A stretch of DNA of 64,000 bases from positions 1 through 64,000 of IMG/VR virus record IMGVR_UViG_3300013093_000043, one strand, 5' to 3'. Origin of the DNA: a virus. Positions 33,471 through 58,160 of the stretch are shown here, piece after piece (the first letter of the stretch is position 1; each line of letters opens with the position of its first letter). Position numbers and translations under genes: made by a program. The notes beneath the pieces were generated by a model. The model was given only the letters and a program-made list of their open reading frames with translations, had not been told where the DNA came from and searched no databases.

Positions 33471-33499
33471 TTGACATCAACACTGTAGCATGTTATACT
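33471..33499 (+). promoter_or_regulatory. Strong sigma70-type promoter for the accessory block
   Basis: TTGACA (33471-33476), a 17-nt spacer and TATACT (33494-33499) make a near-consensus host-type promoter, in a 44-nt intergenic gap. The start codon at 33506 begins 7 nt after the -10 box, so the transcript would begin at or next to the ATG (leaderless). No Shine-Dalgarno sequence precedes that ATG. It marks the switch from late structural genes to accessory genes that are probably expressed early. Confidence 0.65.
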
Positions 33500-33505: not shown

Positions 33506-33835
33506 ATGGACTTAGACACACTCAAATCATACATCACAGTAGCCACAGACTATCAAGTTAACAAACGCATACTCCGCGAGAAAATCCAAACCGATTTGCA
33601 TTTTGCCTACAATGGCGGCTTGTTCAAAGCCACTCCCGAATTGATTTTGTTTGCAAATGCATGGCCTCGTACTCAAGACTTGTATTTGGAAGACACATAT
33701 CAAAATCCCATACACATTCCCGATCCTGAATCGTTTGCTGAACAATGCAAAGAATGTTATTCTAAAGTGATGAACCGTTGGCATCAACAACATGACGAAC
33801 TCAAAAAAATTAGAAAAATCCACTTCAACCGCTAG
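33506..33835 (+). CDS. Small conserved-looking protein, unknown function
   Basis: A 109-residue protein, first gene after the sigma70-type promoter. It is helical with a basic C-terminus (NRWHQQHDELKKIRKIHF), and the middle reads FAYNGGLFKATPELILFANA, then IHIPDPESF. Small proteins of this build, with a YNGGLF.(A/V)TPEL core and a C-terminal helix, occur in aquatic T4-like phages without known function. The gene would be translated from a leaderless or near-leaderless transcript. It overlaps the next gene by 44 nt, so the two are probably co-expressed. Confidence 0.6.
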   Translation: MDLDTLKSYITVATDYQVNKRILREKIQTDLHFAYNGGLFKATPELILFANAWPRTQDLYLEDTYQNPIHIPDPESFAEQCKECYSKVMNRWHQQHDELKKIRKIHFNR

Positions 33836-34610
33836 AGGTGTTGTTGTATTTGCATTTAACACCGAGACTGTTGACTATGTAAAGATTGCAGATCAAACCA
33901 GTCAATTGGCCGGCCACTACATGGATTTGCCCGTCACACTAATAACTGATCATGATGCAGATCCCAAGTTTAGATACGACAATATCATAACAATAGATAA
34001 ACAAGGAGATAATTTTAGAGATGGAAGCGTACAATGGAGAAATCGTGGACGACATTGGGCATACGCTCTCACGCCCTATGAAGATACTATATTGCTTGAT
34101 TGCGACTATTTGGTGCTTGATTCCAGTCTCGATCGTTTATTTGATACAGACTTTGACTACAAACTAATGCACCATAACACAAATTATGCGGGTGCAGTAT
34201 ATGAACGCATGGGCGAGACTAGCTTACCGTTTATCTGGGCCACAGTGATACTATTTCGCAAATCTAAAAAATCTGAATTGTTATTCGATCTAGTGGGAAA
34301 GATACAACGCAATTACGATTATTACCGAGCATTGTATAACATTCGTGAAGGTAATTATAGAAACGATTATGCGTTTGCTATTGCTAACACGATCTTAAAC
34401 GGATACAACTTGAATGAAGATCAGGGCATTCCGTGGCCTATGTTTACTATTGAAGAAACGATTGATCAAGTATTGTATGACGACAATTTTTTATATGTTT
34501 ATAGTGAAGGTGCAGGGAGAATAGTGCCAAGACAAAACACACACATCATGGACAAACAATATCTACAAAGTCCGGACTTTGAACAATTGGTAAATGGATT
34601 AATGGTATGA
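33792..34610 (+). CDS. GT-A-like glycosyltransferase
   Basis: A 272-residue protein with a GT-A/GT8-like layout. It has an N-terminal Rossmann strand (GVVVFAFNTETVDYVKIADQ), VTLITDHDAD, and a DxD-type metal site DCDYLVLD at 103-110, after the TPYEDTILL strand that precedes DxD in this fold. It then has a FIWATVILFRKS acceptor-side strand. The enzyme likely transfers a sugar from a nucleotide donor, but donor and acceptor are unknown. It belongs with the next gene, a shorter relative in which the site reads LESDLLFT. The start overlaps the preceding gene by 44 nt, and no better downstream start is present. Confidence 0.6.
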   Translation: MTNSKKLEKSTSTARGVVVFAFNTETVDYVKIADQTSQLAGHYMDLPVTLITDHDADPKFRYDNIITIDKQGDNFRDGSVQWRNRGRHWAYALTPYEDTILLDCDYLVLDSSLDRLFDTDFDYKLMHHNTNYAGAVYERMGETSLPFIWATVILFRKSKKSELLFDLVGKIQRNYDYYRALYNIREGNYRNDYAFAIANTILNGYNLNEDQGIPWPMFTIEETIDQVLYDDNFLYVYSEGAGRIVPRQNTHIMDKQYLQSPDFEQLVNGLMV

Positions 34611-35446
34611 GTCAACATCAAGAACAACAGGGTTTTGTAACCTTTGCAATTAACACGCCCGAAGTTGACTACGGACGATTGGCATATCTTCAATGCTTGA
34701 ATGTTAAAGCCACGCAACAAGAGAACCGTTATGCGGTTATTGCGGATGAAGCAACATACAATTCATTTAACAAAAAACAACTCAACGCATTTGATTATGT
34801 TATCAGACTGCCTGAGGGATTTGAACAAAATCCCTTTGTTGCAGAACCTTATGTGTTCTCGCTTACTCCGTTTAAAGAAACTATTAAACTAGAAAGTGAT
34901 TTATTGTTTACCCGCAGTATAGATCACTGGTGGACTGCATTTAGACTTCGTGATGTTTGTTTAGGTAATGGTGCCAAAAATGTTATGGACACACCCAGTG
35001 CGGTTAGAAAATACAGACAACTATTTGATGCAAATCAATTACCTGATGTTTATACAGGCTTGATGTATTTTAGATACACGCAAACTGCCAAACAATTTTT
35101 TGAACTTGCTAGGTTTGTATTTCAGGAATGGGATTTTATTAAAACTTATCTTGAAGGTGTAGACCTAGAACTAAAGCCCACAACCGATGTTGTGTATGCA
35201 TTGGCGGCATTGATTTTGGGCGAAGAAGCAGTCTTGATGCCTAGTATGGATTTTATAAACTTCGTACACATGAAGTCGGGCTTCAATGGATGGAGCGATG
35301 CACGTAGTTGGCTAGAGACTGTGATGCACGAGCGTGATGGTGATATTATACGCATTAACAACTTAAATCAATACGATCCGGTTCACTATCATGACAAAAC
35401 ATACGCCACACAGGAACTAATAGAATACTATGAATCAAAAGCCTAA
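34607..35446 (+). CDS. GT-A-like glycosyltransferase paralogue with altered DxD site
   Basis: A 279-residue protein related to the preceding gene: the start GFVTFAINTPEVDYGRLAYL parallels VVVFAFNTETVDYVKIA, and SLTPFKETIKLESDLLFT parallels ALTPYEDTILLDCDYLVL. Here the DxD position reads ESD, so metal binding may differ. Further on are TGLMYFRYTQTA and a helical C-terminal half ending in DPVHYHDKTYATQ. It starts on an ATG overlapping the previous stop (ATGGTATGA). It may be a glycosyltransferase of different specificity or a non-catalytic partner of its neighbour. Tandem duplication is likely. Confidence 0.55.
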   Translation: MSQHQEQQGFVTFAINTPEVDYGRLAYLQCLNVKATQQENRYAVIADEATYNSFNKKQLNAFDYVIRLPEGFEQNPFVAEPYVFSLTPFKETIKLESDLLFTRSIDHWWTAFRLRDVCLGNGAKNVMDTPSAVRKYRQLFDANQLPDVYTGLMYFRYTQTAKQFFELARFVFQEWDFIKTYLEGVDLELKPTTDVVYALAALILGEEAVLMPSMDFINFVHMKSGFNGWSDARSWLETVMHERDGDIIRINNLNQYDPVHYHDKTYATQELIEYYESKA

Positions 35447-36164
35447 AATTTTTATTGGTGGAGATAGCTGGGGTTGCGGCGAATGGATAGGGCATAAAGT
35501 GACTCATCGTGGACTAGAACAATATTTTTTAGATGTAGGATATACTGTTATAAATTCATCTAGACCGAGCAGCTCAAATATACAATCAATTATACGTTTA
35601 GATGAATCCCTCAAAATTTTCAATAATGATATTATTCTGTGGATACAAACAGATCCTATCAGGGACGTAAGTATAGATAAAAGTCAAGCTCTAGATGTAC
35701 ATAAATTAAGAGATGGTATTGAAAAGTTTGGAGGATTTGTAAAATTTATGGAGTTTTTGCTTCATGAAAATTATAAAAAATTAAATGATATTGCAAAAGA
35801 AAACAATACTGTTATACATTTAATTGGCGGAATGACAAATGTGATGGAAAATATTGCTAGTGATTTTAAAAATTTAAATGTAGTAGTACAATCGTGGCAT
35901 CATCTACTGGTAGGTAACATCCCGCAATATTCCGAATGGTACAAGGAATTATATTTGGGAATTTTAAGTAAGAATATAAATGAATTTTCTTTACAGTTAT
36001 ACGAATGGAAAACAAAATCTAAATTGGTCAACGAATTATACACAATAACAAAAAAATGGGATCAGTTCCAATCATTGGAGAATATATATCCAGACCGAGC
36101 ACATCCAAGTAGACACGGCCATAAAAAACTTTTTGATTATATCATAAATGAATTAAAACTATGA
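35430..36164 (+). CDS. SGNH/GDSL hydrolase-like protein A
   Basis: A 244-residue protein with an N-terminal GGDSWGCGEW block I (nucleophile Ser near residue 13) and a C-terminal YPDRAHPSRHGHKKL block V supplying Asp and His. These are the two ends of the SGNH catalytic triad. Family members remove or transfer acyl groups on sugars and lipids. It is the first of four SGNH-like proteins in the block, next to glycosyltransferase genes, so acylation or deacylation of a glycan is plausible. It overlaps its neighbours by 17 and 4 nt. Codon use is more AT-rich than in the late genes. Confidence 0.6.
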   Translation: MNQKPKIFIGGDSWGCGEWIGHKVTHRGLEQYFLDVGYTVINSSRPSSSNIQSIIRLDESLKIFNNDIILWIQTDPIRDVSIDKSQALDVHKLRDGIEKFGGFVKFMEFLLHENYKKLNDIAKENNTVIHLIGGMTNVMENIASDFKNLNVVVQSWHHLLVGNIPQYSEWYKELYLGILSKNINEFSLQLYEWKTKSKLVNELYTITKKWDQFQSLENIYPDRAHPSRHGHKKLFDYIINELKL

Positions 36165-36505
36165 GTAAAGATTTTTGGCACGAAGTTGAAAGTTTAATCA
36201 AACCCGTACCCAAATTGGAATTAGAGTATAGGCTATATTATGACGAAGAAGGTAATATTGTTTCTTGTTCCATGACAGATCATCCCAAAAGCGGTGAATA
36301 TATTGTTGTGACCCGACAAGAATATGATACATACTTTACATATCAAGTTATTCGTGGACGATTAGTAAAAATCGAACAAGATGCCAAGTATCGTGTGCAA
36401 TTGGAAAAGAGTAATAAGGGATTTCAAGTAGTACGCGGACATGCCGGACTCGTAATAGAAGATGAAGAATATAACGACACAGAATACTATGAAAGAACCA
36501 ATTAA
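36161..36505 (+). CDS. Small hypothetical protein
   Basis: A 114-residue protein not recognised. It is rich in charged and aromatic residues and predicted mainly beta in the middle: LEYRLYYDEEGNIVSCSMTD, then EYIVVTRQEYDTYFTYQVIR, with an acidic C-terminus (EDEEYNDTEYYERTN). The pattern of a short strand, a DEEGNI turn and a V.RQEYDTY segment suggests a small soluble beta protein. It sits between two SGNH-like genes and overlaps both (4 and 17 nt), so it is translated with them and may be an accessory to one of them. Confidence 0.6.
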   Translation: MSKDFWHEVESLIKPVPKLELEYRLYYDEEGNIVSCSMTDHPKSGEYIVVTRQEYDTYFTYQVIRGRLVKIEQDAKYRVQLEKSNKGFQVVRGHAGLVIEDEEYNDTEYYERTN

Positions 36506-37193
36506 CTTACTGGTAAATGGTGCCAGTTTTAGTCGAGGCCCAACTGCCTGGCCTTATCATCTTGACGGTGTCAATTTGACCAATTTGGCCTGTGCCGCTG
36601 CAGGTAATACCTATATTCATGACACCACTATTTCAGAATTGGCCAATAGAAAATATGATTTTGTTGCAATTATGTGGACTGAGCCGGCGAGAACTGATAT
36701 AAAAGTCTCAAACATAAATGTATTTAATACGTCAACTTATACCAGCAAGTATCAATCAACAAAAAACGATTGGCAAGGAAAAATAATTTATCCCGTTAAC
36801 GATCAAGACTATGTTGAAAAAAATTGGGTGTTTGGTTGCGGATATATCAATAAAGAATCAGAGTTATTAAAAACCAAATTATTTGACCAGTTATACCGTT
36901 ACCAGTCAATTGAACAACTAGTTGAAAAATCCTTGATACATATGATTTCTTTGCAAGGTATATTGAAGTCAATAAATATACCGTATTTGTTTATGTATGA
37001 TAACGATTATTCTGGTGACTTTCAAAAGTTTTCGGCATTGTATAATGTTCTGGATCAAGCCAATATCTACATCACCAATAACATATATGCTATAACAAAA
37101 CAAAACAACTGGTACGACGAGGACAAACATCATCCCGGCCCAGAAGCACACAAAAAATGGGCTGAATTAATTAATCCTTTTATAACAAAATGA
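36489..37193 (+). CDS. SGNH/GDSL hydrolase-like protein B
   Basis: A 234-residue protein. I chose the ATG at 36489 because it gives an immediate beta strand and the catalytic loop INLLVNGASFSRGPTAWP, in which GAS replaces GDS. The C-terminal block DEDKHHPGPEAHKKW keeps the Asp and His. An FVAIMWTEPARTDI segment corresponds to the central strand and oxyanion region of this fold, also seen in the two relatives near 50 kb (VVTSWTFPGRYEF, VVCGWTELSRLDI). It is likely an esterase or acyltransferase-type SGNH protein, though the altered first block lowers certainty. It overlaps the previous gene by 17 nt and the next by 4 nt. Confidence 0.55.
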   Translation: MKEPINLLVNGASFSRGPTAWPYHLDGVNLTNLACAAAGNTYIHDTTISELANRKYDFVAIMWTEPARTDIKVSNINVFNTSTYTSKYQSTKNDWQGKIIYPVNDQDYVEKNWVFGCGYINKESELLKTKLFDQLYRYQSIEQLVEKSLIHMISLQGILKSINIPYLFMYDNDYSGDFQKFSALYNVLDQANIYITNNIYAITKQNNWYDEDKHHPGPEAHKKWAELINPFITK

Positions 37194-38089
37194 CACAAGA
37201 TTTGATTGACATAGCCGATTTAGATGTAGTATTTTTAACATACGACGAACCACGACGAGAAGAATTTTGGATACAGATTCAAAACATGGTGCCTTGGGCA
37301 ACAAGAGTGGACGGTGTAAAAGGAAGTGATGCAGCTCACAAAGCAGCTGCTGATGCCAGCACTACTGATCGTTTCGTGCTCATTGATGGCGACAATATTC
37401 CCGACGCTAGTTTCTTCAACTTACAGTTGGATTCACGAATCAATGCTCGTGGGGTATTTCGTTATCGTGCTAGGAATAATATTAATGGCTTGATGTACGG
37501 CAACGGCGGATTGAGCATTTGGCACAAAGACTTTGTGTACAACATGCGGACACACGAGAATACAGATGGCTCAGATGCAACTGCTGTGGAGTTTTGTTTC
37601 CACCCGGACTATTGGGCTATGCATGACTGCTATAGCACCACATACCCTGATGCCACCGCATTCCAAGCATGGCGAGCCGGCTTTCGTGAAGGTGTTAAAA
37701 TGTGTTTGGACCGTGGTGCCAAGCCCTCAATCTCGGAGTTTAAAACTCGTGTAGTCGGTCGCAACATGGATAACCTAAGCATATGGCACAACGTGGGTGC
37801 TGACAATGAGATGGGCATTTGGGCCATGGCCGGTGCTAGACAAGGCACATATAATACAATGCTCTCGGACTGGGATTATCGAGAGGTGCAGGACTTTGCG
37901 ATGTTAAAAGACTATTGGGAAGAGACGGTGCAACATTTCAATCCGGTAAACTTTTTCCATAATTATCGAGAAGAATTAACACAACGTTTGGGCCTGCCCA
38001 TGGTTGATTTAGATGCTGAACAAAGTAGATTCTTTAAGCATCATTACAAAAGTAATTTTCGAAACACAGGACCCATGGTACGAGAATGA
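37190..38089 (+). CDS. GT-A-like protein with IDGDN motif
   Basis: A 299-residue protein with an N-terminal LDVVFLTYDEPRREEFW strand-helix, then TRVDGVKGSDAAHKAAADAS and a DxD-type site LIDGDNIPD (Asp66, Asp68), all ordered as in GT-A glycosyltransferases. A following RYRARNNINGLMYGNGGLSI segment is matched by FNARNPVNGLEYGHQGVIAY in the C-terminal domain of the 1075-residue protein at 54933. The match continues through FREGVKMCLDRGA / FREVIKLKHFDA and MAGARQGT / LAGARDAV. The two therefore share one domain family, although the larger protein reads AVFAKIEVD where this one has the DGD motif. Donor and acceptor are unknown. Confidence 0.6.
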   Translation: MTQDLIDIADLDVVFLTYDEPRREEFWIQIQNMVPWATRVDGVKGSDAAHKAAADASTTDRFVLIDGDNIPDASFFNLQLDSRINARGVFRYRARNNINGLMYGNGGLSIWHKDFVYNMRTHENTDGSDATAVEFCFHPDYWAMHDCYSTTYPDATAFQAWRAGFREGVKMCLDRGAKPSISEFKTRVVGRNMDNLSIWHNVGADNEMGIWAMAGARQGTYNTMLSDWDYREVQDFAMLKDYWEETVQHFNPVNFFHNYREELTQRLGLPMVDLDAEQSRFFKHHYKSNFRNTGPMVRE

Positions 38090-38610
38090 TCAAAGAAGTA
38101 AAATTAAATTACGACTTATCGGTATTTTTAAATGCCGATTACACCCAACACGAAGGTAGTTGTATCAAACATCAGGTATACGAATTGACCGATGTGCACG
38201 AAAAGTTTGGCGGGTTCCCTAAAACCTATAAGTATGATAATACTCTTATAAATCAATTATGGTGGGATAGCACACAAGTCGATTTTAAAGACATTGGCAA
38301 CCAATTGGGCATGGAAGTAATTACAGTAAGCAGTATTTTACAACCTCCAGGATGTGTTATACCCTTGCACAGAGACACCTTTTTTCAAATTAACCAACGC
38401 TATCCCGATCGCAAAGAATTAAAAGTACGTGCCAACATTTATCTTGAAGATTGGAAAACAGGTCATTTTTTACAATATGATGACATTGTGATATCAAATT
38501 GGCAAGCCGGTACTGGATACTTGTGGGACAGTAGTGTGTTACACCTAGGTGCTAATGCCGGAATGGAGGACAAATACACATTGCAAGTGTCGGGATTTTA
38601 TCATGAATAA
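38086..38610 (+). CDS. 2-oxoglutarate/Fe(II) oxygenase-like protein (Asp/Asn hydroxylase type)
   Basis: A 174-residue cupin-like protein with an HxD iron site (VIPLHRDTFFQIN, His95 and Asp97) and a distal His153 in VLHLGANAGMEDKYTLQVSG, a stretch typical of the last two strands in aspartyl/asparaginyl beta-hydroxylase-like oxygenases. KVRANIYLEDW provides the substrate-side strand. It could hydroxylate a small molecule, sugar nucleotide or protein. It lies immediately before the acyltransferase and ANL ligase genes with an 8-nt overlap, suggesting shared expression and possibly a shared pathway. Confidence 0.65.
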   Translation: MIKEVKLNYDLSVFLNADYTQHEGSCIKHQVYELTDVHEKFGGFPKTYKYDNTLINQLWWDSTQVDFKDIGNQLGMEVITVSSILQPPGCVIPLHRDTFFQINQRYPDRKELKVRANIYLEDWKTGHFLQYDDIVISNWQAGTGYLWDSSVLHLGANAGMEDKYTLQVSGFYHE

Positions 38611-39250
38611 CACTAATTTGGATTTTCGATTACTACATGATTCGGGCAAGATTTTGTGTTTTGTCGGGCACTCGTATGGCAATTTTACACTGTTTAACTA
38701 TTTTCAACCAACAAGGCCCTGCGAAATATATCGTATCGAAGAAATAGAAAACAATTCCAGTGATTGGTTTGATGCCAGACAGTTTATATCGGTATCGGCC
38801 GATATTGCATTGAAACGACGCATTGTTGACTCGTTACAAAAACACAATCCCGATTATTTCAGCGTTGTGGCTGCTCGATGCCATATTGGATTCAATGTCG
38901 AGATCGGACGCGGAACGTATATCAGTGATTTCAATACCTTGTTGGACAACACTGTGGTAGGCAACTATGTGGTAATAACACACTACGTGTCCTTGAGCCA
39001 CGAAGTCAAGATTGGAGATTATTGCCATATTGGCCCAAGTGCGTATTTGTTGTTTACCAACTTGGGAGCAGGATCGTATGTTGCAGCCAAATCAAATTTT
39101 TTAGGAAAAACCAAATCACCAATCACAACTGCTGACCATTGCAATTACTTGATTGGATCAACAGTGACAAAAAATATAACAGCGACTGGAACTTACCACA
39201 ACAATAGGCATTTGAATTCCAATTCAAGCCTAAACACCAAGATAGATTGA
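38603..39250 (+). CDS. Hexapeptide-repeat acyltransferase (left-handed beta-helix)
   Basis: A 215-residue protein with an N-terminal Rossmann-like part (ILCFVGHSYGNFTLFNYF) and a C-terminal left-handed beta-helix made of hexapeptide turns: IGRGTYISDFNTLLDNTVVG, YVVITHYVSLSHEVKIGDYC, then HIGPSAYL. This two-domain plan resembles sugar O/N-acyltransferases of the PglD/NeuD type, which acylate amino- or hydroxy-sugars using acyl-CoA. A candidate catalytic His is in the SLSHEVKIGD turn. The gene is 1 nt from the ANL ligase, which could supply the acyl group. The ATG at 38603 is preferred to an upstream one that would overlap the oxygenase gene by about 60 nt. Confidence 0.7.
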   Translation: MNNTNLDFRLLHDSGKILCFVGHSYGNFTLFNYFQPTRPCEIYRIEEIENNSSDWFDARQFISVSADIALKRRIVDSLQKHNPDYFSVVAARCHIGFNVEIGRGTYISDFNTLLDNTVVGNYVVITHYVSLSHEVKIGDYCHIGPSAYLLFTNLGAGSYVAAKSNFLGKTKSPITTADHCNYLIGSTVTKNITATGTYHNNRHLNSNSSLNTKID

Positions 39251-39251
39251 T

Positions 39252-40340
39252 ATGAAACGAGCCGTTATTTGCGTGGAGAATCCACAAGACTATATTTCTA
39301 AAATAACTGATTACAGTCAAATGATAATAAATCCCTTGGCCAATGCCGATAGGAATCAGTACCTTCTGGACCATTCGGATTGGAGTTTGCTTATCACTGA
39401 TCAAGGCGAGCAATATCGCAACGGCGGCGATTACGATGAAGCTGTTTTTTTGTATACTTCGGGAACCACTGGCGACAGTAAATTTTACAGCTTTACACAA
39501 AGCCAATTGGATATAGTAATTGACAATGTGATATCCGAATACAATTTGACTGCAAATGATATCTATGCCTCGCTTATGCCACTGTGGCATCCATACGGGC
39601 AAACTTTTTATCGAGTGGCCAAAAAAGTCAATTGCGAAGTACATCATTACTCGATTAAAAACTGGAGTGAAAGTCCCAAATGCAATCCAACATTTATTGC
39701 ATCTGCTCCGGTTTTTCTAAAAACATTGGCCAAATTTGATTTTACCAATTTGGATTTTATTATTTCGGCCGGCGGAGCATTTGCAAACATAAATGAATAC
39801 AACGAGTTCAAGAACAAATTCAACTCGATCATTTTGGAATCATATGGATTGACCGAATCGTTGGGACATTGTTTTACAAATCCACGTTATGGCGAACATA
39901 GATATGGCACAATAGGATTACCGTTTGGCCTAGAAGCCAAGATAGATCAAGACAATCATCTACATCTACATGGACCGGCCTGTGCCATGCCCGGCTGGTT
40001 TGATACCGGGGATCTAGCACAACAAGACGACAAGGGCTACTACAAACTGTTGGGTAGAAGTGACGATATAATACGAACAAAGGGAGTAAATATAAATCCT
40101 TTAAGTATCGAGAAACAACTGCGAGAAAATATTCCGGGACTAGTAGAATGTGCAATATTTGGAACTGATCGTATAAACTGTGTGTATGTGGGTGACGCGA
40201 CACCGGATCAAATACAGAAATTTTTACTTGGACTTGGCTCGCATTGTCGAGCAAAAAACATAGTAAAAATGGATGCACTGCCGTTGAATGTTTCGGGAAA
40301 AATTTCAAGGTACTACCTAAACAATTTATTTAAATCATGA
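39252..40340 (+). CDS. ANL-superfamily acyl-AMP ligase (AMP-binding), short form
   Basis: A 362-residue adenylate-forming enzyme with the core motifs in order: YTSGTTGDSK (68-77, phosphate-binding loop), ESYGLTES (near 198), WFDTGDL (near 250), GRSDDIIRTKGVNINP (from 268, hinge) and the C-terminal catalytic Lys in VSGKISR (Lys350). It activates a carboxylic acid with ATP, either for CoA or carrier loading or for direct transfer. It is about 150 residues shorter than typical acyl-CoA synthetases (500-550), missing most of the N-terminal subdomain, as in short ANL enzymes. ANL ligases are unusual in phages. The adjacent acyltransferase is its obvious partner. No carrier protein gene was found nearby. 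Confidence 0.8.
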   Translation: MKRAVICVENPQDYISKITDYSQMIINPLANADRNQYLLDHSDWSLLITDQGEQYRNGGDYDEAVFLYTSGTTGDSKFYSFTQSQLDIVIDNVISEYNLTANDIYASLMPLWHPYGQTFYRVAKKVNCEVHHYSIKNWSESPKCNPTFIASAPVFLKTLAKFDFTNLDFIISAGGAFANINEYNEFKNKFNSIILESYGLTESLGHCFTNPRYGEHRYGTIGLPFGLEAKIDQDNHLHLHGPACAMPGWFDTGDLAQQDDKGYYKLLGRSDDIIRTKGVNINPLSIEKQLRENIPGLVECAIFGTDRINCVYVGDATPDQIQKFLLGLGSHCRAKNIVKMDALPLNVSGKISRYYLNNLFKS

Positions 40341-41353
40341 TAAAATTAGAATCACGAGACGGTCAAATTTGGAATCTTGAAAGCAAAGTAGTTGAAATTA
40401 TCAATGAAGCAATTGCCACAAAAGGCAGTATTGTAATTGATTTCAACTACGAGGGGCCTTGCCTGCGTTCTTGTGGATTTTATCAATTACTAGACAGTGT
40501 AACAAAAACTTTCAATGTTGATAAATCGAGATTTGTAATACAGACTTGTAATGTGGAAGAATGTCATGATGAATATAAAATATTGATCAAAGATAATATT
40601 TGGCTAATTGAAGCCAAAAAATTTAGTAATGTGTTGGCACAGTCAAAAAATCCCGATTTAAAAACAGTAGGTTGTTTTATTGGAAAAACCAATTGGGCTA
40701 GATTGATATTGGTCGCCTGGCTTGATCTTAATTACCACAAGCAATCGTTATTGACCTGTCATCACAACAACAATGGCGAGATGCATCGTTCAGCACTACA
40801 GTTATCAGAGATAATGAATCGCAGTGCCGATGACATTGATGCAGCCACAAAATTTTTAAAAACTTGTCCTAGAACTCTTGAAAAATACGAAAAAAATTCT
40901 GATTTTTTACAAAATTATAATTATTCAACAAGTACAAAATATCAAGGAAGTTTAACCACAATGAGTTCATTGACTTTTGGATTTTCAAAAGTCTATTCAG
41001 ACATATTTTGTGAATTGGTATGTGAAACTTATTACAGTGGATTGACCTTCTTCCCCACAGAAAAAACATTTAAGCCCATTATACAACTGACACCATTTAT
41101 TGTGTTTGGTCCGCAAGGCCATTTGTCCAATTTGCAAAGATGCGGATTTAGAACATTTGGCAATTACTGGGACGAAAGTTACGATGATTTTGCTGGAATA
41201 GATAGAATAGACAAAATCAAAAAGATAATATCAACATTGTGTATGCAAACTCAAACACAATTACAAGACATGTATCATGACATGATGCCGATACTACAAC
41301 ACAATCAAAATAGATTATCAAAAATCACTCCCGGGGAATTAAAACTTGGATAA
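40337..41353 (+). CDS. TEKTFKP-family protein 1 (glycosyltransferase-like)
   Basis: A 338-residue protein, one of four in the window sharing a C-terminal block: a V(C/A)ET strand, FFPTEKTFKPIIQLTPFIVF, a GF(R/K/A)TF turn and a (F/W)DESYD motif (near residue 280 here), followed by a helical tail. The block order of Glu, a Thr-Glu-Lys loop, then PF..(F/V)G is reminiscent of the nucleotide-binding half of GT-B glycosyltransferases (for example the TEK loop of fucosyltransferases), but the similarity is only motif-deep. The N-terminal half differs between members. It overlaps the ANL ligase by 4 nt and the first radical SAM gene by 8 nt. Confidence 0.5.
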   Translation: MIKLESRDGQIWNLESKVVEIINEAIATKGSIVIDFNYEGPCLRSCGFYQLLDSVTKTFNVDKSRFVIQTCNVEECHDEYKILIKDNIWLIEAKKFSNVLAQSKNPDLKTVGCFIGKTNWARLILVAWLDLNYHKQSLLTCHHNNNGEMHRSALQLSEIMNRSADDIDAATKFLKTCPRTLEKYEKNSDFLQNYNYSTSTKYQGSLTTMSSLTFGFSKVYSDIFCELVCETYYSGLTFFPTEKTFKPIIQLTPFIVFGPQGHLSNLQRCGFRTFGNYWDESYDDFAGIDRIDKIKKIISTLCMQTQTQLQDMYHDMMPILQHNQNRLSKITPGELKLG

Positions 41354-50647: not shown

Positions 50648-50708
50648 AATACGCTACCGAAAAAAATTACGCGAACTACGCAAACGAGATCCATTTATTT
50701 ACAAATGA
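50607..50708 (+). CDS. Overlapping micro-protein of 33 residues
   Basis: An ATG-to-TGA frame of 33 codons between the two SGNH-like genes. It starts inside the end of protein C (41-nt overlap) and ends on the start of protein D (ATGA overlap). The translation begins MNWLKSLYNRAVLEI and continues RYRKKLRELRKRDPFIYK. It would form one highly basic amphipathic helix. The end-to-start ATGA coupling and the fact that it fills an otherwise odd 57-nt gap support a real gene. Similar tiny basic helices are common among small phage host-takeover or membrane-surface proteins, but no function is assigned. Confidence 0.5.
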   Translation: MNWLKSLYNRAVLEIRYRKKLRELRKRDPFIYK

Positions 50709-51391
50709 TATTGACTCTAGGCGATAGTTTTACTTATGGGTCCGAGTTGGCTGACCGTCCCATGAACTACTCTGTGACTACACATTTACCTCCCAGCAGT
50801 TTTGCTTGGCCCGTCTTGTTAGCAAAAAAATTAAATACAACGGTTGATAACTTGGCATTGCCCGGGGCCAGTAACGCTAGAACATTTAGGTTGGCGATGT
50901 CAACAACAGTAAAGAAAAAATATGATATTGTGGTTTGTGGGTGGACTGAATTATCACGACTTGACATCCAGTATCAGGACACAGATTTTCCGGTCACAAT
51001 CAATTCGGGAAAATGGTTTAAAAATGAGTTACCTTGGATTGACGATTACTATAGATTAAGTTATAATGAAAAGCATGCAGCCGAAACATGGTTGTCGCAA
51101 TTGGTGGCATTACAGGATTTTTTTAAATACAACGGTCAAAGATACTTGTTTTTGAGTATGCAAGGGTATGGTATACTGCCAGGATTTCTTGGGACAGACA
51201 CAATAGAAAACTTTGTAGAATTAGAAAAACGAATTGATCGACAATACTATCTCAATTGGCCCAACGGCGGCATGGTAGATTGGATGGCAGATTGTCCAAA
51301 AGGTCCTGGCGGACATCCGCTAGAACTAGGGCACGAACGAATAGCAGATAAAATTTATGAACATATTAGGAGTCTCGGCTGGCTTTCATGA
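50705..51391 (+). CDS. SGNH-like protein D, altered triad
   Basis: A 228-residue protein beginning MILTLGDSFTYGSELADRP, almost the same block I as protein C, with LALPGASNARTFRLAMS matching the G.SN block II and VVCGWTELSRLDIQY the block III strand. The C-terminal block is GPGGHPLELGHERIADKI; His is present, but the usual upstream Asp is Gly. The pattern suggests a distinct SGNH subfamily shared with protein C. It overlaps the carbamoyltransferase gene by 35 nt. It may remove or add acyl groups on the same glycan modified by the neighbouring carbamoyltransferase. Confidence 0.6.
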   Translation: MILTLGDSFTYGSELADRPMNYSVTTHLPPSSFAWPVLLAKKLNTTVDNLALPGASNARTFRLAMSTTVKKKYDIVVCGWTELSRLDIQYQDTDFPVTINSGKWFKNELPWIDDYYRLSYNEKHAAETWLSQLVALQDFFKYNGQRYLFLSMQGYGILPGFLGTDTIENFVELEKRIDRQYYLNWPNGGMVDWMADCPKGPGGHPLELGHERIADKIYEHIRSLGWLS

Positions 51392-52850
51392 TGCCGCAGT
51401 AACATTATTATCACCTGCGGGTGAGATATTGTTTGCCGCACACAGTGAAAGATACAGCAAAATTAAAAACGATCCCAACATACATTCGGAAATGGTATGG
51501 GATTTGGTCAACGCTGAGAATTGTTTCGGGCTTGATACCATTGCCTATTACGAACGTCCCTTGTATAAACAAGCACGGCAGTGGTATTCGGGACAGGGTA
51601 TTGAATGGAACAAATTAATCGCACGTAAAATATTACGAGATCAAATACGAATATTTGATTTCTCCAGTGTACCAGTTAAGAGTTATAATCACCATTTAAG
51701 CCATGCGGCAGCAGGATTTCAAACAAGTCCATTTGATCGTGCTACAGTGGTTGTTATTGATGCTATAGGTGAATGGGATACTATCAGCATCTGGGGCGCA
51801 GAATACAACGGCCGAGGTGAAGCAACTTACAAACGCTTATGGGGACAACGGTATCCGCATAGCATAGGATTGTTTTATAGCGCAATGACACAACGTTGTG
51901 GCCTAAAACCCAACGAAGAAGAATATATTACAATGGGCATGAGTGCGTATGGTACTAATGTGTTTGATGACTTGGTACAAACTGCAGTAATTGAAAACGA
52001 GTGGGAAATTAGATTAAAGCAAAATTTACACTTGGGCTTTACTGAAGACTTTTTTAAGGAAGCTGGTGTAGAGGAAATGGCACGCAGTGCACAAAACGTA
52101 GCCGAGATATTGATATTGAATGTTATGTATCGTGCCAAGAAGTTAGGCTGGAGTAATAACTTATGCTACATGGGCGGAGTCGCACTTAACTGTAGTGCCA
52201 ATAGACACATAGGAGCTTATTTTGATAATGTATGGATTATGCCAAATCCTGGCGATGCTGGTAGCAGTCTTGGTGCTGCGGCACTTGCGTATAAAAAACG
52301 TGTTAATTGGCGCGATGCTTTTCTTGGCCATGATATACCTGGTGCCTATCCTGTTAACGACGTACTTGATCACTTACTTAGTGATAAGATTGTTGGTGTG
52401 GCTAGTGGTCGCGCAGAATTCGGACCTAGAGCCCTGGGAAATAGAAGCCTACTCGCGGATCCGAGAGGAAGTGAAATCAAGGACCAAGTAAATGAAATCA
52501 AACGCAGACAAAAATTTAGACCTTTTGCGCCGGTTATTCTTGAAGAATATGCCCCGGAGTATTTTGACATGCCTCGGGGCTTTGCTACTAGCCCTTACAT
52601 GCAGTCAGTGGCTCATTGCCGCCATCCCGATCTATTTCCTGCTATTGTACATCACGATGGAACAAGTCGAGTACAAACCGTTGGACGAGACGGATCGGGA
52701 ATAAGAGAACTACTAGAAAAATGGTTTGTTATGACCGGATGCCCTATGTTGCTTAACACAAGTCTAAACATACGTGGCGAACCCATGGTAAACGATCGTA
52801 CAGATGCAGATCGTTTTGAACAACTATATGGTGTACGGGTGTGTTCATGA
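51357..52850 (+). CDS. NodU/CmcH-family O-carbamoyltransferase
   Basis: A 497-residue enzyme of the NodU/CmcH/TobZ family, which forms carbamoyl-adenylate from carbamoyl phosphate and ATP and moves the carbamoyl group to a hydroxyl of a sugar or other metabolite. The N-terminal Kae1-like domain shows MNILGVSAGFHDAAVTLLSP, the metal-binding NHHLSHAAAGF (near 111) and VVVIDAIGEW. NEEEYITMGMSAYG and GGVALNCSANR follow. The C-terminal YrdC-like part has GRAEFGPRALGNRSLLADPR (from 351) and FAPVILEE. The length is slightly below typical (about 550-600). It starts 35 nt inside the SGNH-D gene. A sugar hydroxyl is a likely acceptor in this context. Confidence 0.85.
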   Translation: MNILGVSAGFHDAAVTLLSPAGEILFAAHSERYSKIKNDPNIHSEMVWDLVNAENCFGLDTIAYYERPLYKQARQWYSGQGIEWNKLIARKILRDQIRIFDFSSVPVKSYNHHLSHAAAGFQTSPFDRATVVVIDAIGEWDTISIWGAEYNGRGEATYKRLWGQRYPHSIGLFYSAMTQRCGLKPNEEEYITMGMSAYGTNVFDDLVQTAVIENEWEIRLKQNLHLGFTEDFFKEAGVEEMARSAQNVAEILILNVMYRAKKLGWSNNLCYMGGVALNCSANRHIGAYFDNVWIMPNPGDAGSSLGAAALAYKKRVNWRDAFLGHDIPGAYPVNDVLDHLLSDKIVGVASGRAEFGPRALGNRSLLADPRGSEIKDQVNEIKRRQKFRPFAPVILEEYAPEYFDMPRGFATSPYMQSVAHCRHPDLFPAIVHHDGTSRVQTVGRDGSGIRELLEKWFVMTGCPMLLNTSLNIRGEPMVNDRTDADRFEQLYGVRVCS

Positions 52851-53401
52851 ATGTAAATGCCACTGTACAATTTGCCAACAACGCTAGGTTATTTTTAATA
52901 GATAATTTTTTTAGCGAGGAACTAAACAATCAAGTGTTTGGTACTTTTATGTCGTACAACGACACTAATACCAATTGGGGCAACACTACAAATTTTGAAC
53001 ACAAACCTGGACGGAAGGTATATACTGGATCCGTCGGCAACATAGATGCTTATGTACAAACACCTGCGGTATTGGATCAAATTCGCACACTATTAGGTAA
53101 ACCGGTAAAATATCTAAGTTCAAGTATGTGGGTAGACCTTCCGGGATATACAATTTCACCACATTACGATATTGATGCTTTTGAACATGCTGTACAAATA
53201 TACATGACCGATCCTTCAAAAAATTTTGAAATGATGGGAACCGCATTTTATTTAAATAACAAACAACTGATGTTTGAAATACCTTATAGAAGAAACTCGG
53301 GCTATCTAATAGACACTGCTCAAAGTATACTACACGGACTACATCATTCAATACCGCCGGGATTTTTACGATATAGTGTTTACATGAGATTTCGAACATG
53401 A
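52847..53401 (+). CDS. 2-oxoglutarate/Fe(II) oxygenase-like protein 2
   Basis: A 184-residue protein. The ATG at 52847 forms an ATGA overlap with the carbamoyltransferase stop; a GTG two codons earlier is an alternative. Iron-site residues are visible as PHYDID (His106, Asp108) and a distal His in HGLHHSIPPGFLRYSVYMRF, with Arg175 as the 2-oxoglutarate anchor. The N-terminal LFLIDNFFSEELNNQVF segment is typical of prolyl-hydroxylase-like oxygenases. It could hydroxylate a peptide residue, lipid or sugar. It is only distantly similar to the oxygenase-like protein at 38086. It overlaps the next gene by 4 nt. Confidence 0.65.
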   Translation: MNVNATVQFANNARLFLIDNFFSEELNNQVFGTFMSYNDTNTNWGNTTNFEHKPGRKVYTGSVGNIDAYVQTPAVLDQIRTLLGKPVKYLSSSMWVDLPGYTISPHYDIDAFEHAVQIYMTDPSKNFEMMGTAFYLNNKQLMFEIPYRRNSGYLIDTAQSILHGLHHSIPPGFLRYSVYMRFRT

Positions 53402-53865
53402 GAGTATTAATAATGGGCTTACCGGGTGCAGGTAAAACCACATTGGCATCGGCATTAAAGCCCGCATTGGAAGTTGCGGGCTATACAGTGGCTTGGTTCA
53501 ATGCCGATGCGTTGCGAGCACAACACAATGACTGGGACTTTAGTGGTGCTGGTAGAATGCGTCAAGCCGAGCGTATGCGTGAAGCAGCCGACGGTGAAGT
53601 TTGTGATTTTGTCATATGCGACTTTGTTTGTCCGTTATTGACAATGAGATTTGTATTTGCACCGCATTTTGTTGTGTGGGTAGACACTATAAAGGAAGGC
53701 AGATTTGAAAGTACAAACCAAATATTCAATCCACCCAAGTCATGGGATGTTAGGGTTGACTCTCAAGATACTGAGCAGTGGCTTCCTGTAATCCTGGAAC
53801 GGTTGGTTTCTGCTCGCAAACGTCTCGTAGTCCAAGAACTAACTCATTCCAACAACGATCAATAA
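53398..53865 (+). CDS. P-loop kinase resembling adenylylsulfate (APS) kinase
   Basis: A 155-residue P-loop kinase with GLPGAGKTTLASAL (residues 7-20) and VAWFNADALR, then DFSGAGRMRQAERM, the layout of APS kinase (P-loop, a (L)D.D..R strand, and F...R..(N)..R). The C-terminal WDVRVDSQDTE matches the usual DVR.DTQ.. end of APS kinases. Such enzymes make PAPS, the sulfate donor, but small phage versions may phosphorylate other substrates. Its last 116 nt overlap, on the opposite strand, the end of the 53750-54934 gene. It would complete the plus-strand accessory operon. Confidence 0.65.
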   Translation: MRVLIMGLPGAGKTTLASALKPALEVAGYTVAWFNADALRAQHNDWDFSGAGRMRQAERMREAADGEVCDFVICDFVCPLLTMRFVFAPHFVVWVDTIKEGRFESTNQIFNPPKSWDVRVDSQDTEQWLPVILERLVSARKRLVVQELTHSNNDQ

Positions 53866-54934
53866 AATTTTGACTATAAAATAAGTTGTAATTATAGTCT
53901 AGCACACCCTGCATTTCTTGTAGAGTAAATTCCAAATCCTTTTCACTTAGCGTACAAATCCTTTCCAATACTTCGCCTACCGCCTGCATACGTGCAACAG
54001 GATCTTCAATCGTATCGTAACTCTCATCCCACCAATAATCAAAAGTTTGAAATCCGTAACTACGCAAATACTCTAGGTTATGTGCAGGGCCTACTAGTAT
54101 AAATGGCATGCGGCTCACAATGGGTTTAAATATCTTTTCGGTTAAATGACATTTACGTTCCCAATAACAAGTTTCGGTTACAACATATACAAAACTTTCT
54201 TGAGATTCGGCAACTGCACTCAACGCAAAACTATTATTGGGAATCAAGTGCTGGTCTTTAAAATCGATACGTAAAGGTAATTGTATTTTATTGATATTGC
54301 TGATTGCTTTATCTGCCACTTCTTTGCTAATTAATCGTTCATCAACTGCTGACAATAAATTTTCTGCGTAGTTCTTTTGGTTGTCGGGACAAACATCACC
54401 GTAACTGACATGGCCTTGATCCAGTATGTTACACTCGATTAACTCGCTGATAAATAAACTACGATACACCCGTCGGTTGCTGGTCAATCTATTAAACGTG
54501 ATGTATTTTTTCTTTAGTTTTCTTGTTGCAGGATTGACCAATCTTGAATCATATTCGATCCCTCGAAACCAATCGTGAGCAGCAAACACATGATGAAAAT
54601 AATACACAACTGGCCATCCGTATCTTTGTTGAATCAATTCTAGAGGATCGCTGTTCTTTTCGGTAGTAACCAGTATGAACGGACCTTGACAATTGTCTCT
54701 AACGTAATCTAGTAGTTTGAAATTGTATTCACCCAAAATTGGTTCTTGATCGTAACAGATAAACATTGGTCCATCTACTACATCTTTGTCGGTATGCCCG
54801 ATGTCATCGGCAATACGTTCAAGATTTTCTGGTTGAGTTGCTCCGTAAGGCAGTAGATAAAGTAGTCTGCGATATGTTACAATAGTGCTTAAATAATGAA
54901 AGATGTTTTCGTAATGACTGTGAATATTATACAT
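53750..54934 (-). CDS. TEKTFKP-family protein 3 (glycosyltransferase-like)
   Basis: A 394-residue member of the four-protein family. The block is VVTETCYWERKCHLTEKIFK, then SRMPFILVGPAHNLEYLRSY, GFQTFDYWWDESYD and a helical tail. An additional KKKYITFNRLTSNRRVYRSL segment (near residue 150) parallels the LNNRASPHRQSLYY region of family member 4. Its start codon overlaps head to head with that of the 54933-58160 gene, and its 3' end overlaps the APS-kinase-like gene by 116 nt on the opposite strand. It may be a GT-B-like glycosyltransferase, again only by layout. Confidence 0.55.
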   Translation of the reverse strand: MYNIHSHYENIFHYLSTIVTYRRLLYLLPYGATQPENLERIADDIGHTDKDVVDGPMFICYDQEPILGEYNFKLLDYVRDNCQGPFILVTTEKNSDPLELIQQRYGWPVVYYFHHVFAAHDWFRGIEYDSRLVNPATRKLKKKYITFNRLTSNRRVYRSLFISELIECNILDQGHVSYGDVCPDNQKNYAENLLSAVDERLISKEVADKAISNINKIQLPLRIDFKDQHLIPNNSFALSAVAESQESFVYVVTETCYWERKCHLTEKIFKPIVSRMPFILVGPAHNLEYLRSYGFQTFDYWWDESYDTIEDPVARMQAVGEVLERICTLSEKDLEFTLQEMQGVLDYNYNLFYSQNFIDRCWNELVLGLRDVCEQKPTVPGLQEATAQYLESQP

Positions 54935-57900
54935 GTTTGATGTGTTTTACAAAGGGCCCAAGCCCAATTTGTTTGCTTTTGAAAAACCTGCAACGAGTTT
55001 GGAGGATGCAGCACGTCAGAGTCGAACCAAGTACTACTGGTTTATTTATGGACTCAATGATTACAGTAGTTTTGATTTTGATTATGTTCCGGTTCCGTGG
55101 CAAAGCGAGTATATACACACCTGGCCCAATCAATGGCAACCGGATGGAGAAGTGTATCTAGCCAAACGAACCAACAGTGGACAACCGCATTATCATGAAC
55201 AAATCGTTCGCAGACTGGGAGTAAAAGAGTATTGGCATATTCCGGACTATATAGATCCTGAGACTGTAGATACTACTTGGTGTCCAGATCCACTGGAACC
55301 CGCTTACATATACCATTTCCCCAGTCAACATCAAAGTTGTAGCGGAGTTACTTATACTGTCCCGGGAGCAACCGAAGTAAAATTAGTAGATGCATTTGTT
55401 GTCAAGGCACTGCCCAATCCCGCTAGATTTGGGCACAATATTGCAGTAACTGACTTTGATTACAGTTGGCATCCTAACGTGCTAGATCCTGCATACACTT
55501 ATGTGTTTGGCAATCAATGGAATCCGGCTACTCTAGAAGCCACTGTGGTATATCATGTAGATGGGGCAACCGAAATCAAGTACATGGAACCAATTGCCAC
55601 AGTAGCGTCTGATATGACCAATTGGGAATCGCTAGATGACATTGAGGAATTTGATTACAGTTGGAGGCCCAATCCCACAGAACCTGCTTACATTTATGTA
55701 TTTGGCAATCAATGGCTAACGCCCGAGCAACGTCCGGCATTAAAATATGTTGTTCCCGGTGCTACTGAGATAAAATACATGGACATGCCCAAGGCCACCA
55801 GAACCAGCAAGCCCGAACTGTTTGTAACACATTACGACTGCGAGTTTGATTATAGTTGGGAACCTGACCCTGGGTCACCGGCGTATAACTATGTATTTGG
55901 TAATCAATGGTATCCGGGCGAACAAATGCCCACAGTAGAATATAGGATGTCGGGAGCAACAGAAACAAAATTTGTTGATGTACCGGCACGACTATTACCA
56001 ACAACTCTTAATTGGCAAACTCGAATTGACTGTGAGTTTGATTATAGTTGGTGTCCCGATCCCGGAGACCCCGCCTACATCTATGTATTTGGTAATCAAC
56101 ATTGGCCTGCAATAAAAATGCCCACAGTTGAATATCATGTACCGGGTGCTACAGAATATAAATTTTTAGATTATCCCGTGGCAAAATTATTGCCAAATCT
56201 TGATGCTTGGCAAGTACCTGAAGAAATCGATGCTGACAACATTGACTACAGTTGGGTGCCCGATCCCGGAGAGCCTGCTTACATATATCACTTTGGAACA
56301 GACTATCAACAAAGCATTGGATTGACTTATACCGTGCCCGGAGCAACAGAATTAAAGTTTTGGGGCGACATACCTCGAGTCAAGCGAGAACAAACTGCGG
56401 TAAAAGCACTAGAGATATTCTTTATTGATCGCGGCAATGCCAAGAGCCTGGTACGTTACGAAATACTACAAGCACTTTACGAAAATGTAGTCAAGGTTCG
56501 TTATGCAAACAGCCTGTTTGAAACCATACAAAGATGTGTGACTCGTGCACAAGGCAATCGGTTTTGGGTCATTAGCAGCGAATACAATTACAACGACTTT
56601 GATTTTTATTGGCACGCCGAACCCTGGCAAAGTTATATGACGCATGTGTTCCCGAGTCAACATAACAAGTGGAGCGATACATTTTTAATAAACCGATGGG
56701 AATTTGAACGCCATGCAAAATGGGCCACCGGCCTAGAACAGTTTCCCAATTTAAACTTTGTTCAAGATCAAATGGTTAACCGGACCGAAGCCACTGCGGA
56801 CATTTACTACGTAGACCATGCCAATCCCGAAAGCAATGATAATTACAACTATCTTAAAGTAGAAGTGGGAGAAGTAATACGCACACGTTTTGCGGGCGAG
56901 TATTTGGACGTATTAAAACGTATTGTGAACACGGCAGAAACAGAATATGTTTGGGTGGTTAGCAGTTTATGTCGGTACAACTATTTTGATTTTACTTGGG
57001 AACCTGAACCTTGGCAACGCGAAATGATACACTGCTTTGCCAATTACGGAGAACAACGTGGGGACACATTTTATATACACGTAGAATCATTTAAACGGCA
57101 AATGATTGAACTTGAATTATTGGATTGGTTTAACGTTATCAACTATGTCAGCACTAACACAGTCAGCAGGTATCCTACCCCAATACACTACTACGAAGGT
57201 GACGATTTAATCACCGAAATTAAAAACTATGATTTTAAAACTCCTTACGTGACATTTACAAATCAACAAGACCTAAGTTTGTTTTTAACAAACTGTTTGT
57301 GGAGCGAAAAGGATCGCACAGTAGTACGAGCAACTAGGTCGGGGGCAACTTGTATAGTACCCCGAGATATTAAACGATATTTACGAACACAAATATACGA
57401 CTATCCCTATTTGGACAAACATCACTACATAAACGAGTACTACAATAATAGTCTATTTCCCGGAATAGATATAGTTTACATCAGTAACGGCGAACCCGAT
57501 GAGGAAAAGTGGTACGACACACTATGCTATGTGTCTAATAACACCGGTAGTGAAGTAAAATGGATACGTGGAGTCAATGGCAGAACTGCTGCTTACCAAG
57601 CAGCTGCCAGGGCAAGTACTACCCCGTGGTTCTTTGCGGTGTTTGCCAAAATAGAAGTTGATGTTCATTTCCCCTGGCGAGATTGGATGCCGGACTATTG
57701 GCAAGAACCCAAGCACTATATCTTTAATGCACGTAATCCGGTTAATGGGTTAGAGTACGGCCACCAGGGTGTAATAGCATACAACCGACGACTAGTCCTT
57801 GAAAATAACTCACCTGGGATAGACTTTACACTATCACAACCGCACGAATCGGTGCCGATATTGTCAGGCGTGGCACATTTTAATCAGGATCCTTGGATGA

Positions 57901-58160
57901 CGTGGCGTACTGCATTTAGAGAAGTAATAAAGTTAAAGCACTTTGATGCAACGGCACCTACACTAGAAAACAGTCATAGACTTGACGTATGGTGCACACA
58001 GGCCAAGGGAAAGTACAGTGATTACTGTCTAGCAGGGGCCCGTGACGCAGTTGCTTATTATGAAGAGGTAAATGGAGATTACGAGCTACTCAAATTGAGC
58101 TTTGAGTGGGATTGGTTACGAACAAGATTTGAAGCAGTTAAACTTCGTTATGGGATTTAA
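54933..58160 (+). CDS. Large repeat protein with C-terminal GT-A-like domain
   Basis: A 1075-residue protein. Residues about 113-500 hold six tandem repeats of roughly 65 residues, each with (F)DYSW.P.P..PAY.Y.FG.Q(W/H) followed by a strand pair with PGATE(I/L/Y)K(Y/F). Three longer related units, at about 20-60, 530-600 and 660-740, share FDF.W...PWQ..(Y/M)(I/T)H.F. These recur with a (Y/F)WV(I/V)SS strand. The C-terminal 240 residues (DIVYISNGEPDEEKWYDTLC; GVNGRTAAYQAAARAST; FNARNPVNGLEYGHQGVIAY; FREVIKLKHFDA) are homologous to the GT-A-like protein at 37190. The repeats may bind glycan or organise a multi-enzyme surface. Start codon at 54933 overlaps the divergent gene's start. Confidence 0.55.
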   Translation: MFDVFYKGPKPNLFAFEKPATSLEDAARQSRTKYYWFIYGLNDYSSFDFDYVPVPWQSEYIHTWPNQWQPDGEVYLAKRTNSGQPHYHEQIVRRLGVKEYWHIPDYIDPETVDTTWCPDPLEPAYIYHFPSQHQSCSGVTYTVPGATEVKLVDAFVVKALPNPARFGHNIAVTDFDYSWHPNVLDPAYTYVFGNQWNPATLEATVVYHVDGATEIKYMEPIATVASDMTNWESLDDIEEFDYSWRPNPTEPAYIYVFGNQWLTPEQRPALKYVVPGATEIKYMDMPKATRTSKPELFVTHYDCEFDYSWEPDPGSPAYNYVFGNQWYPGEQMPTVEYRMSGATETKFVDVPARLLPTTLNWQTRIDCEFDYSWCPDPGDPAYIYVFGNQHWPAIKMPTVEYHVPGATEYKFLDYPVAKLLPNLDAWQVPEEIDADNIDYSWVPDPGEPAYIYHFGTDYQQSIGLTYTVPGATELKFWGDIPRVKREQTAVKALEIFFIDRGNAKSLVRYEILQALYENVVKVRYANSLFETIQRCVTRAQGNRFWVISSEYNYNDFDFYWHAEPWQSYMTHVFPSQHNKWSDTFLINRWEFERHAKWATGLEQFPNLNFVQDQMVNRTEATADIYYVDHANPESNDNYNYLKVEVGEVIRTRFAGEYLDVLKRIVNTAETEYVWVVSSLCRYNYFDFTWEPEPWQREMIHCFANYGEQRGDTFYIHVESFKRQMIELELLDWFNVINYVSTNTVSRYPTPIHYYEGDDLITEIKNYDFKTPYVTFTNQQDLSLFLTNCLWSEKDRTVVRATRSGATCIVPRDIKRYLRTQIYDYPYLDKHHYINEYYNNSLFPGIDIVYISNGEPDEEKWYDTLCYVSNNTGSEVKWIRGVNGRTAAYQAAARASTTPWFFAVFAKIEVDVHFPWRDWMPDYWQEPKHYIFNARNPVNGLEYGHQGVIAYNRRLVLENNSPGIDFTLSQPHESVPILSGVAHFNQDPWMTWRTAFREVIKLKHFDATAPTLENSHRLDVWCTQAKGKYSDYCLAGARDAVAYYEEVNGDYELLKLSFEWDWLRTRFEAVKLRYGI
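55270..56350 (+). repeat. Tandem ~65-residue protein repeats
   Basis: Six repeats encoding DYSW-x-P-(D/N)-P...PAY-x-Y-x-FG-x-Q start near 55273 (TTWCPDPLEPAY), 55452, 55645, 55842, 56034 and 56240, spaced about 180-210 bp. DNA similarity is moderate, so the duplications are not recent. Codons for GATE(I/Y/L)K are conserved in each. Confidence 0.75.

Follow-up and report, generated by a model that had tools for sequence, protein, structure and literature searches.

Gene content of the module

We analysed a stretch of viral DNA of 64,000 nucleotides (the window), which covers bases 1-64000 of the 67,680-base IMG/VR entry IMGVR_UViG_3300013093_000043; the final 3.7 kb of this entry were read as a separate locus (L002). 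Behind its tail fibre genes, the window contains a module with five tandem genes for radical S-adenosylmethionine (radical-SAM) enzymes, accompanied by genes for putative glycosyltransferases, nucleotide-sugar enzymes and a carbamoyltransferase. A preliminary description of the sequence had proposed a pathway of glycan or base modification, with genes spread loosely over about 25 kb. We find that the genes it named do lie together; instead of a loose collection, however, they form a fixed-order operon that is centred on the radical-SAM genes and has its own promoter. Upstream of the module, the region 1295-33461 is taken up by genes for a late sigma factor, for the hub and wedge proteins of the baseplate, for a virion protein of 4053 aa and for tail fibres. 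Because the wedge protein (8391) has 35-36% identity to its counterparts in jumbo phages, including Salmonella phage Munch, E. coli 121Q and Erwinia SNUABM, we assign the source by sequence to the jumbo T4-like myophages.

The radical-SAM genes are R1 (41346-42734), R2 (42718-44097), R3 (44097-45407), R4 (45397-46608) and R5 (47493-48815), the last being the most conserved gene of the module. They are all on the plus strand, as are all genes below unless stated otherwise. Their products, each with a SPASM/twitch part at the N-terminus, match the NCBIfam family NF033640 (N_Twi_rSAM, twitch domain-containing radical SAM) over nearly the whole model, with 298, 290, 394, 334 and 288 bits compared to a curated cut-off of 170 bits. 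To collect relatives, we searched IMG/VR with R5, which gave more than 600 matches, and retained the 80 top-ranking loci, whose best segments have 69-88% identity. The cysteine motif CX3CX2C is present in all 369 orthologues of R1-R5 (R1 68/68, R2 72/72), and 368 of these have at least four N-terminal cysteines. The five genes are the core of the module. The preliminary description had correctly noted radical-SAM genes here, but understated what turns out to be no ornament. A PDB profile search with R5 gave only a weak match to the radical-SAM core (viperin). Whole contigs of relatives carry 7-15 radical-SAM genes each. In six loci, R3 and R4 are joined in one reading frame of 846-852 aa, and this natural fusion suggests that R3 and R4 may act together.

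Glycosyltransferases were assigned with different strength. REP (54933-58160) is a core protein whose C-terminal 436 residues are predicted to adopt a GT-A glycosyltransferase fold (predicted local distance difference test, pLDDT, 91). With this part, Foldseek found ArnC and HddC at E 5e-4, and VIA gave Z 8-9.5 to cellulose synthase, PcManGT and hyaluronan synthase (root-mean-square deviation, rmsd, 4.1-5.6 over 177-227 residues). The core protein GTc (37190-38089) is homologous to this domain in sequence comparison and occurs in 62/80 loci with a median identity of 64%. The motif DGD is invariant in GTc (residues 66-68), whereas REP has no clear DxD at the corresponding place. GTa (33792-34610), its paralogue GTb (34607-35446) and the TEKTFKPI family, which consists of FT1 (40337-41353), FT2 (46601-47506), FT3 (53750-54934, minus strand) and FT4 (61266-62369, minus strand), have no match in Pfam or PDB profiles; GTa has none in PHROGs either, and GTc also found nothing in PDB profile searches. 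Thus, the earlier label of glycosyltransferase-like holds by fold for REP and by homology for GTc, but for GTa, GTb and the TEKTFKPI family it is a probable assignment. The N-terminal part of REP (54933-56300) consists of W/Y-rich repeats of about 65 residues (FDYSWxPxPxxPAYIYVFGNQW), the copy number of which varies between phages. FT3 and REP are divergent and their start codons overlap as CATG (54932-54935), an arrangement that recurs in 37/44 pairs, so that transcription of each gene has to start within the coding sequence of the other.

Further enzymes can be recognised by their families. CARB (51357-52850) is a core protein of the NodU/TobZ-type O-carbamoyltransferases (Pfam Carbam_trans_N 8e-40, Carbam_trans_C 4e-48; PHROG 1601 5e-93) and is found in 71/80 loci with a median identity of 65%. 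It stays below the cut-off of the NodU equivalog NF041651 (145 vs 1000 bits) and was assigned to the NodU/TobZ superfamily only. Pfam equally backs KIN, an APS-kinase-like P-loop kinase present in about half of the loci (53398-53865, APS_kinase 4e-8), a short AMP-binding adenylation enzyme (39252-40340, PF00501 4e-19) and HexT, a hexapeptide acetyl/acyltransferase (38603-39250, PF00132 2e-10), the latter two being accessory. The adjacent operon on the minus strand adds, as had been described, a DegT/PseC-like sugar aminotransferase (58157-59263, DegT 2e-66) and EPI, a nucleotide-sugar epimerase/dehydratase dependent on nicotinamide adenine dinucleotide (NAD; 60301-61278, NAD epimerase 1e-41). 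Among the SGNH-like genes, the accessory SG1 (35430-36164, SGNH/GDSL-like) and SG4 (50705-51391, SGNH/DUF6071) have weak GDSL/DUF6071 matches in Pfam; SG3 (49850-50647) is near-core, and the accessory SG2 (36462-37193) is a distant relative of SG4. The oxygenase-like genes of the preliminary description, Ox1 (38086-38610, HxD...H) and Ox2 (52841-53401), resemble 2-oxoglutarate-Fe (2OG-Fe) oxygenases by motif, but they have no Pfam match and are accessory, being found at >60% coverage in 1/80 and 6/80 loci, respectively. For the majority of the remaining module proteins, neither Pfam nor PHROGs gave a match. The gene b114 (36161-36505) encodes a protein of 114 aa and unknown function from the freshwater clade. 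None of the 80 loci yielded HexT, the AMP-binding gene or y358 (59267-60343, minus strand), an accessory gene of unknown function. A paralogue of y358 with 28% identity lies at the opposite end of the window (424-1329, minus strand).

Conservation and distribution

Across the 80 loci, the genes recur in the order a109-GTa-GTb-b114-GTc-R1-R2-R3-R4-R5-X355-SG3-SG4-CARB-KIN-FT3-REP-DegT-EPI, and the order of the window is kept in all 75 IMG/VR loci in which no more than one of the seven core genes is missing. Accessory genes are gained and lost between loci (HexT, AMP-binding, Ox1, Ox2, SG1, FT1 and FT2). To obtain an unbiased sample, contigs were chosen by the baseplate gene and then checked for R5, with their reach taken from contig coordinates. 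R5 was present in 14/14 contigs that extend sufficiently far downstream; one shorter contig breaks off within the module, and all others stop short of it. A comparison of the window with L003, its closest relative, gave a ratio of non-synonymous to synonymous substitutions (dN/dS) of 0.04-0.23 for those genes that allowed an estimate; by this measure the module is under purifying selection.

Such a block might also arise if auxiliary genes without any relation to each other accumulated by chance in a variable region. The coming and going of accessory genes would fit this explanation, as would the history of FT2. The FT2 protein is 100% identical to the copy in L003 (dS 0.006), whereas the adjoining R4 and R5 have dS 0.57-0.87 and R3 is strongly diverged; from these distances, FT2 is a recent cassette exchange within the fixed gene order. 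However, the constant order, the presence in every sufficiently long unbiased contig, the purifying selection and the marine counterpart described below refute an accumulation by chance for the core, and we give it practically no credence. The preliminary description had held that occurrence of the genes only as unrelated singletons in related phages would speak against a pathway; we observed the opposite.

In a search of 84,980 species genomes, R5 matched only three contigs (L084, L085 and L086), which all carry phage fibre genes. They contain the module in nearly the order of the window (R5 before R4), with radical-SAM identities of about 40-55%. The contigs sit in metagenome-assembled genomes (MAGs) labelled Ca. 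Pelagibacter, Betaproteobacteria TMED41 and Verrucomicrobia TMED56. Because of the fibre genes and the shared module, they are probably marine phage contigs that were binned into these MAGs as contamination. Since the only three matches in this collection carry phage fibre genes, we discarded the idea that the module is of cellular origin. In a maximum-likelihood tree, R1-R5 form five single-origin groups, each with freshwater and, where sampled, marine members; the five-fold split thus predates the divergence of the marine and freshwater phages.

Among 50,697 records of cultivated phages, no match was found for GTa, GTc, REP, X355 or FT4, and R3 and R5 have only relatives of 22-25% identity, in Vibrio phages. 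The set as such is carried by no phage of this collection.

Promoter and genomic place

In 16/16 loci whose sequence extends sufficiently far in the 5' direction, and also in the marine version, a tail-fibre gene directly precedes the module. The first gene of the module is a109 (33506-33835), which encodes a protein of 109 aa and unknown function and is kept in the marine version too. In front of it, the window contains a sigma-70-like promoter (33471-33499, plus strand; TTGACA-N17-TATACT) with an extended -10 (TG before the -10) that ends 6 nt before the ATG. A -10 with a match of at least 5/6, ending 6-7 nt before the a109 ATG, is present in 17/22 distinct upstream regions, compared to 1.25% of random positions. 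The gap between the fibre gene and a109 usually holds a hairpin with a T-tract that resembles a terminator; the window has no clear hairpin. Sigma-70-like promoters with the -10 at 6-7 nt from the ATG were seen in L019, L021, L032 and L033, in the marine L084 and L085 and in others. In six loci (L007, L009, L036, L055, L063 and L065), the promoter is more distant, and a hairpin with a T-tract separates it from the ATG, resembling an attenuator.

Judged from these elements, the module is probably transcribed separately by a host-type RNA polymerase, and the a109 start perhaps gives a leaderless mRNA. As T4 early promoters are of the sigma-70-like type (PMC3037559), early expression of the module would be plausible. 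T4-type late promoters (TATAAATA) show no enrichment (2 observed vs 5.4 expected). Two ATAAATACT sites (7959 and 8365) just 5' of baseplate genes resemble late promoters, which is suggestive, although their number is not above chance.

Candidate substrates of the radical-SAM enzymes

Bacteria seldom carry N_Twi_rSAM genes. We drew about 300-400 genomes three times, with some overlap between the draws, and 3, 2 and 2 genomes, respectively, were over the cut-off, the two phage-contaminated MAGs among them. One bacterial locus (L220) contains four tandem copies in an O-antigen-type export locus with WbsX, RmlC, RmlD and an ABC-2 permease. There, a Wzt-type O-antigen export ABC ATPase (with Wzt_C) is fused to an N_Twi radical-SAM domain (8579-11143, minus strand) and is followed by three tandem radical-SAM genes; the copies form their own clade in the tree. 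Single bacterial copies in two further loci (L221 and L232) lie beside genes that, judged from sequence, are GT2-like and epimerase-like, and another locus (L233) was uninformative. Guilt by association thus favours, without proving, sugars or polysaccharides as the substrate of the N_Twi enzymes. Our literature search gave no report of this subfamily in phages or in O-antigen loci. Together with the GT-A fold, the nucleotide-sugar enzymes and the carbamoyltransferase, the tandem relatives in a bacterial O-antigen locus bear out the glycan pathway of the preliminary description, and we consider it likely that the block is a dedicated glycan pathway.

Alternatively, the target of the radical-SAM set could be a polypeptide, either a fibre or X355 or some other partner, and the glycosyltransferases would act on the protein thus modified. 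Peptide natural products are modified in this way by SPASM/twitch enzymes. R3 and R4 have SPASM matches at their N-terminus, and the set shows weak similarity to peptide-maturing radical-SAM families. Furthermore, X355 (48802-49869), a core protein of unknown function in the freshwater phages, is encoded directly 3' of R5 in nearly all freshwater loci. Its predicted structure is confident (pLDDT 89). X355 has no significant PDB match by Foldseek and none in PDB profile searches; a second look with VIA found a weak resemblance to cyclophilins (Z about 8, rmsd 3.6 over 131 residues), which make up nearly all top rows, but this may reflect just a common arrangement. However, the marine version lacks X355, which thus cannot be the universal substrate. 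No conserved short precursor-like open reading frame (ORF) was recognised among the ORFs of at least 60-80 aa that were listed, shorter ones not having been searched. We regard a polypeptide substrate as improbable. X355 also has structural matches among uncharacterised proteins of other phages, such as one in Agrobacterium phage Atu_ph07 that a profile search could not locate.

Glycosyltransferases, carbamoyltransferases and radical-SAM enzymes are each found in known DNA-modifying phages, and the block could accordingly be read as one that hypermodifies DNA bases. However, each of 16 contigs of 131-329 kb carries at most one gene of the thymidylate synthase family (PF00303), so that no second, hydroxymethylase-type thymidylate synthase was found in them, and the single copy in the window keeps the asparagine of the dUMP type. 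In addition, the module is linked to tail fibres and not to replication genes. Modification via a hydroxymethylase thus appears unsupported at the sequence level, in line with the doubt already voiced in the preliminary description, and we hold DNA bases to be a very remote candidate.

A proposed glycan pathway and its acceptor

From the gene order, its conservation, the protein families, the GT-A fold, the promoter and the fibre linkage, we infer a chemistry, timing, acceptor and benefit as follows. Expression from the host-type sigma-70 promoter would probably be early. Soluble glycosyltransferases (REP and GTc of GT-A type, probably also GTa, GTb and the TEKTFKPI family) would assemble a glycan from nucleotide sugars, some of which EPI and DegT may supply. 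CARB would O-carbamoylate the glycan, and the SGNH, hexapeptide and oxygenase accessories may decorate it differently in each phage. The five N-twitch radical-SAM enzymes would carry out five obligatory radical steps on sugars, for instance oxidation or epimerisation. The acceptor would be a lipid-linked surface polysaccharide of the host, and the product would alter the receptor of the neighbouring tail fibres and block re-adsorption or superinfection. For this host-surface acceptor we have a slight and tentative preference, based on the sigma-70 promoter, the bacterial O-antigen context and the proposal made for pelagimyophages (PMC7029224). More speculative, and in our view rather unlikely, is that the five enzymes act in sequence to make an unprecedented radical-modified glycan (or glycosylated fibre), as an obligatory core function that belongs to each infection and is not known from cultivated phages.

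Several observations weigh against a glycan for the host surface. Initiating glycosyl-phosphate transferases (PF02397 and PF00953) were each found in 0/16 of the large contigs, which may be incomplete; as a control, the same searches detected them in 9 and 12 of 14 genomes. A hydropathy scan of the module gave no convincing membrane protein; the lone segment over the threshold belongs to KIN, the P-loop kinase. The sequences thus do not support a lipid-linked polysaccharide pathway that is self-contained, and delivery to the surface would rely wholly on host carriers. Furthermore, the core is near-constant across lakes and sea although host surface glycans vary, the early timing is read from the promoter sequence, and no known product was found in the literature for any radical-SAM enzyme of the N_Twi_rSAM subfamily.

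Alternatively, the same pathway could act on the phage's own virion: soluble cytoplasmic enzymes would glycosylate fibres or other virion proteins and thereby tune adsorption or shield the particle. The fibre gene directly upstream, the core that is constant whatever the environment, and the missing lipid-carrier enzymes and membrane proteins all favour this acceptor. Serine and threonine make up 27-31% of the neighbouring fibre proteins, but such richness is common in fibres without glycans. We know of no radical-SAM set reported in connection with virion glycosylation in mycobacteriophages. Virion glycosylation by phage enzymes is known from these phages (Freeman et al. 2023, cited in PMC12619734); their glycosyltransferases may modify the particle, which is the point of likeness to our module. 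On the other hand, the own promoter and the frequent terminator-like hairpin uncouple the module from the fibre operon, and the bacterial radical-SAM relatives sit in a polysaccharide export locus. A virion acceptor is possible in our view, though somewhat doubtful.

Comparison with known systems

Phage sugar-gene clusters beside tail fibres, occasionally with radical-SAM genes, are already known. The tail-fibre clusters of pelagimyophages also hold glycosyltransferases and, in some phages, radical-SAM cassettes, and their authors propose a modification of the host O-chain (PMC7029224). This host recognition cluster is, however, hypervariable and its radical-SAM genes come and go, whereas the module described here has about nine core genes in one order in freshwater and nearly so in the sea. 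The lipopolysaccharide clusters of the cyanophages P-SSM2, S-SM2 and S-SSM7 resemble it in carrying sugar genes, and carbamoyltransferase genes occur in cyanophages; however, the position given for those clusters is near hli03 or phoH and not behind tail fibres (PMC3037559). Searches with R3, R5, GTc, GTa, REP, X355 and FT4 gave no cyanophage match. The bacterial L220 locus shares tandem N_Twi_rSAM genes beside sugar enzymes and transferases, but it has an ABC exporter, rhamnose genes and few radical-SAM copies, and no carbamoyltransferase was seen in the stretch read. The Vibrio phages K566 and K567 likewise carry several tandem radical-SAM genes in a genome of about 255 kb; these are the distant relatives mentioned above, and other module genes were not detected there. 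In K566 (L083, 14965-21701), nicotinamide phosphoribosyltransferase and PnuC are annotated near the tandem genes (NAD salvage). This phage comes from the named-phage collection and is a possible laboratory model. A paper on moraphages was considered as a description of the same lineage and set aside, since glycosyltransferases are part of the core that it describes but radical-SAM genes are not reported. As far as our searches show, the fixed core of five radical-SAM genes, its near-universal presence in the lineage, the unnamed protein families and the conserved promoter are new.

Sugar genes of phages are usually seen as optional. Here, a block of about 20 genes acts like a core part of an uncultivated lineage of jumbo phages, which is widespread in lakes and sea, and the block is absent from known jumbo phages with related baseplates. 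The uncharacterised N_Twi_rSAM subfamily thereby gains a context of surface-polysaccharide biosynthesis in both phages and bacteria, and that phages may remodel surface glycans by radical chemistry becomes a testable idea.

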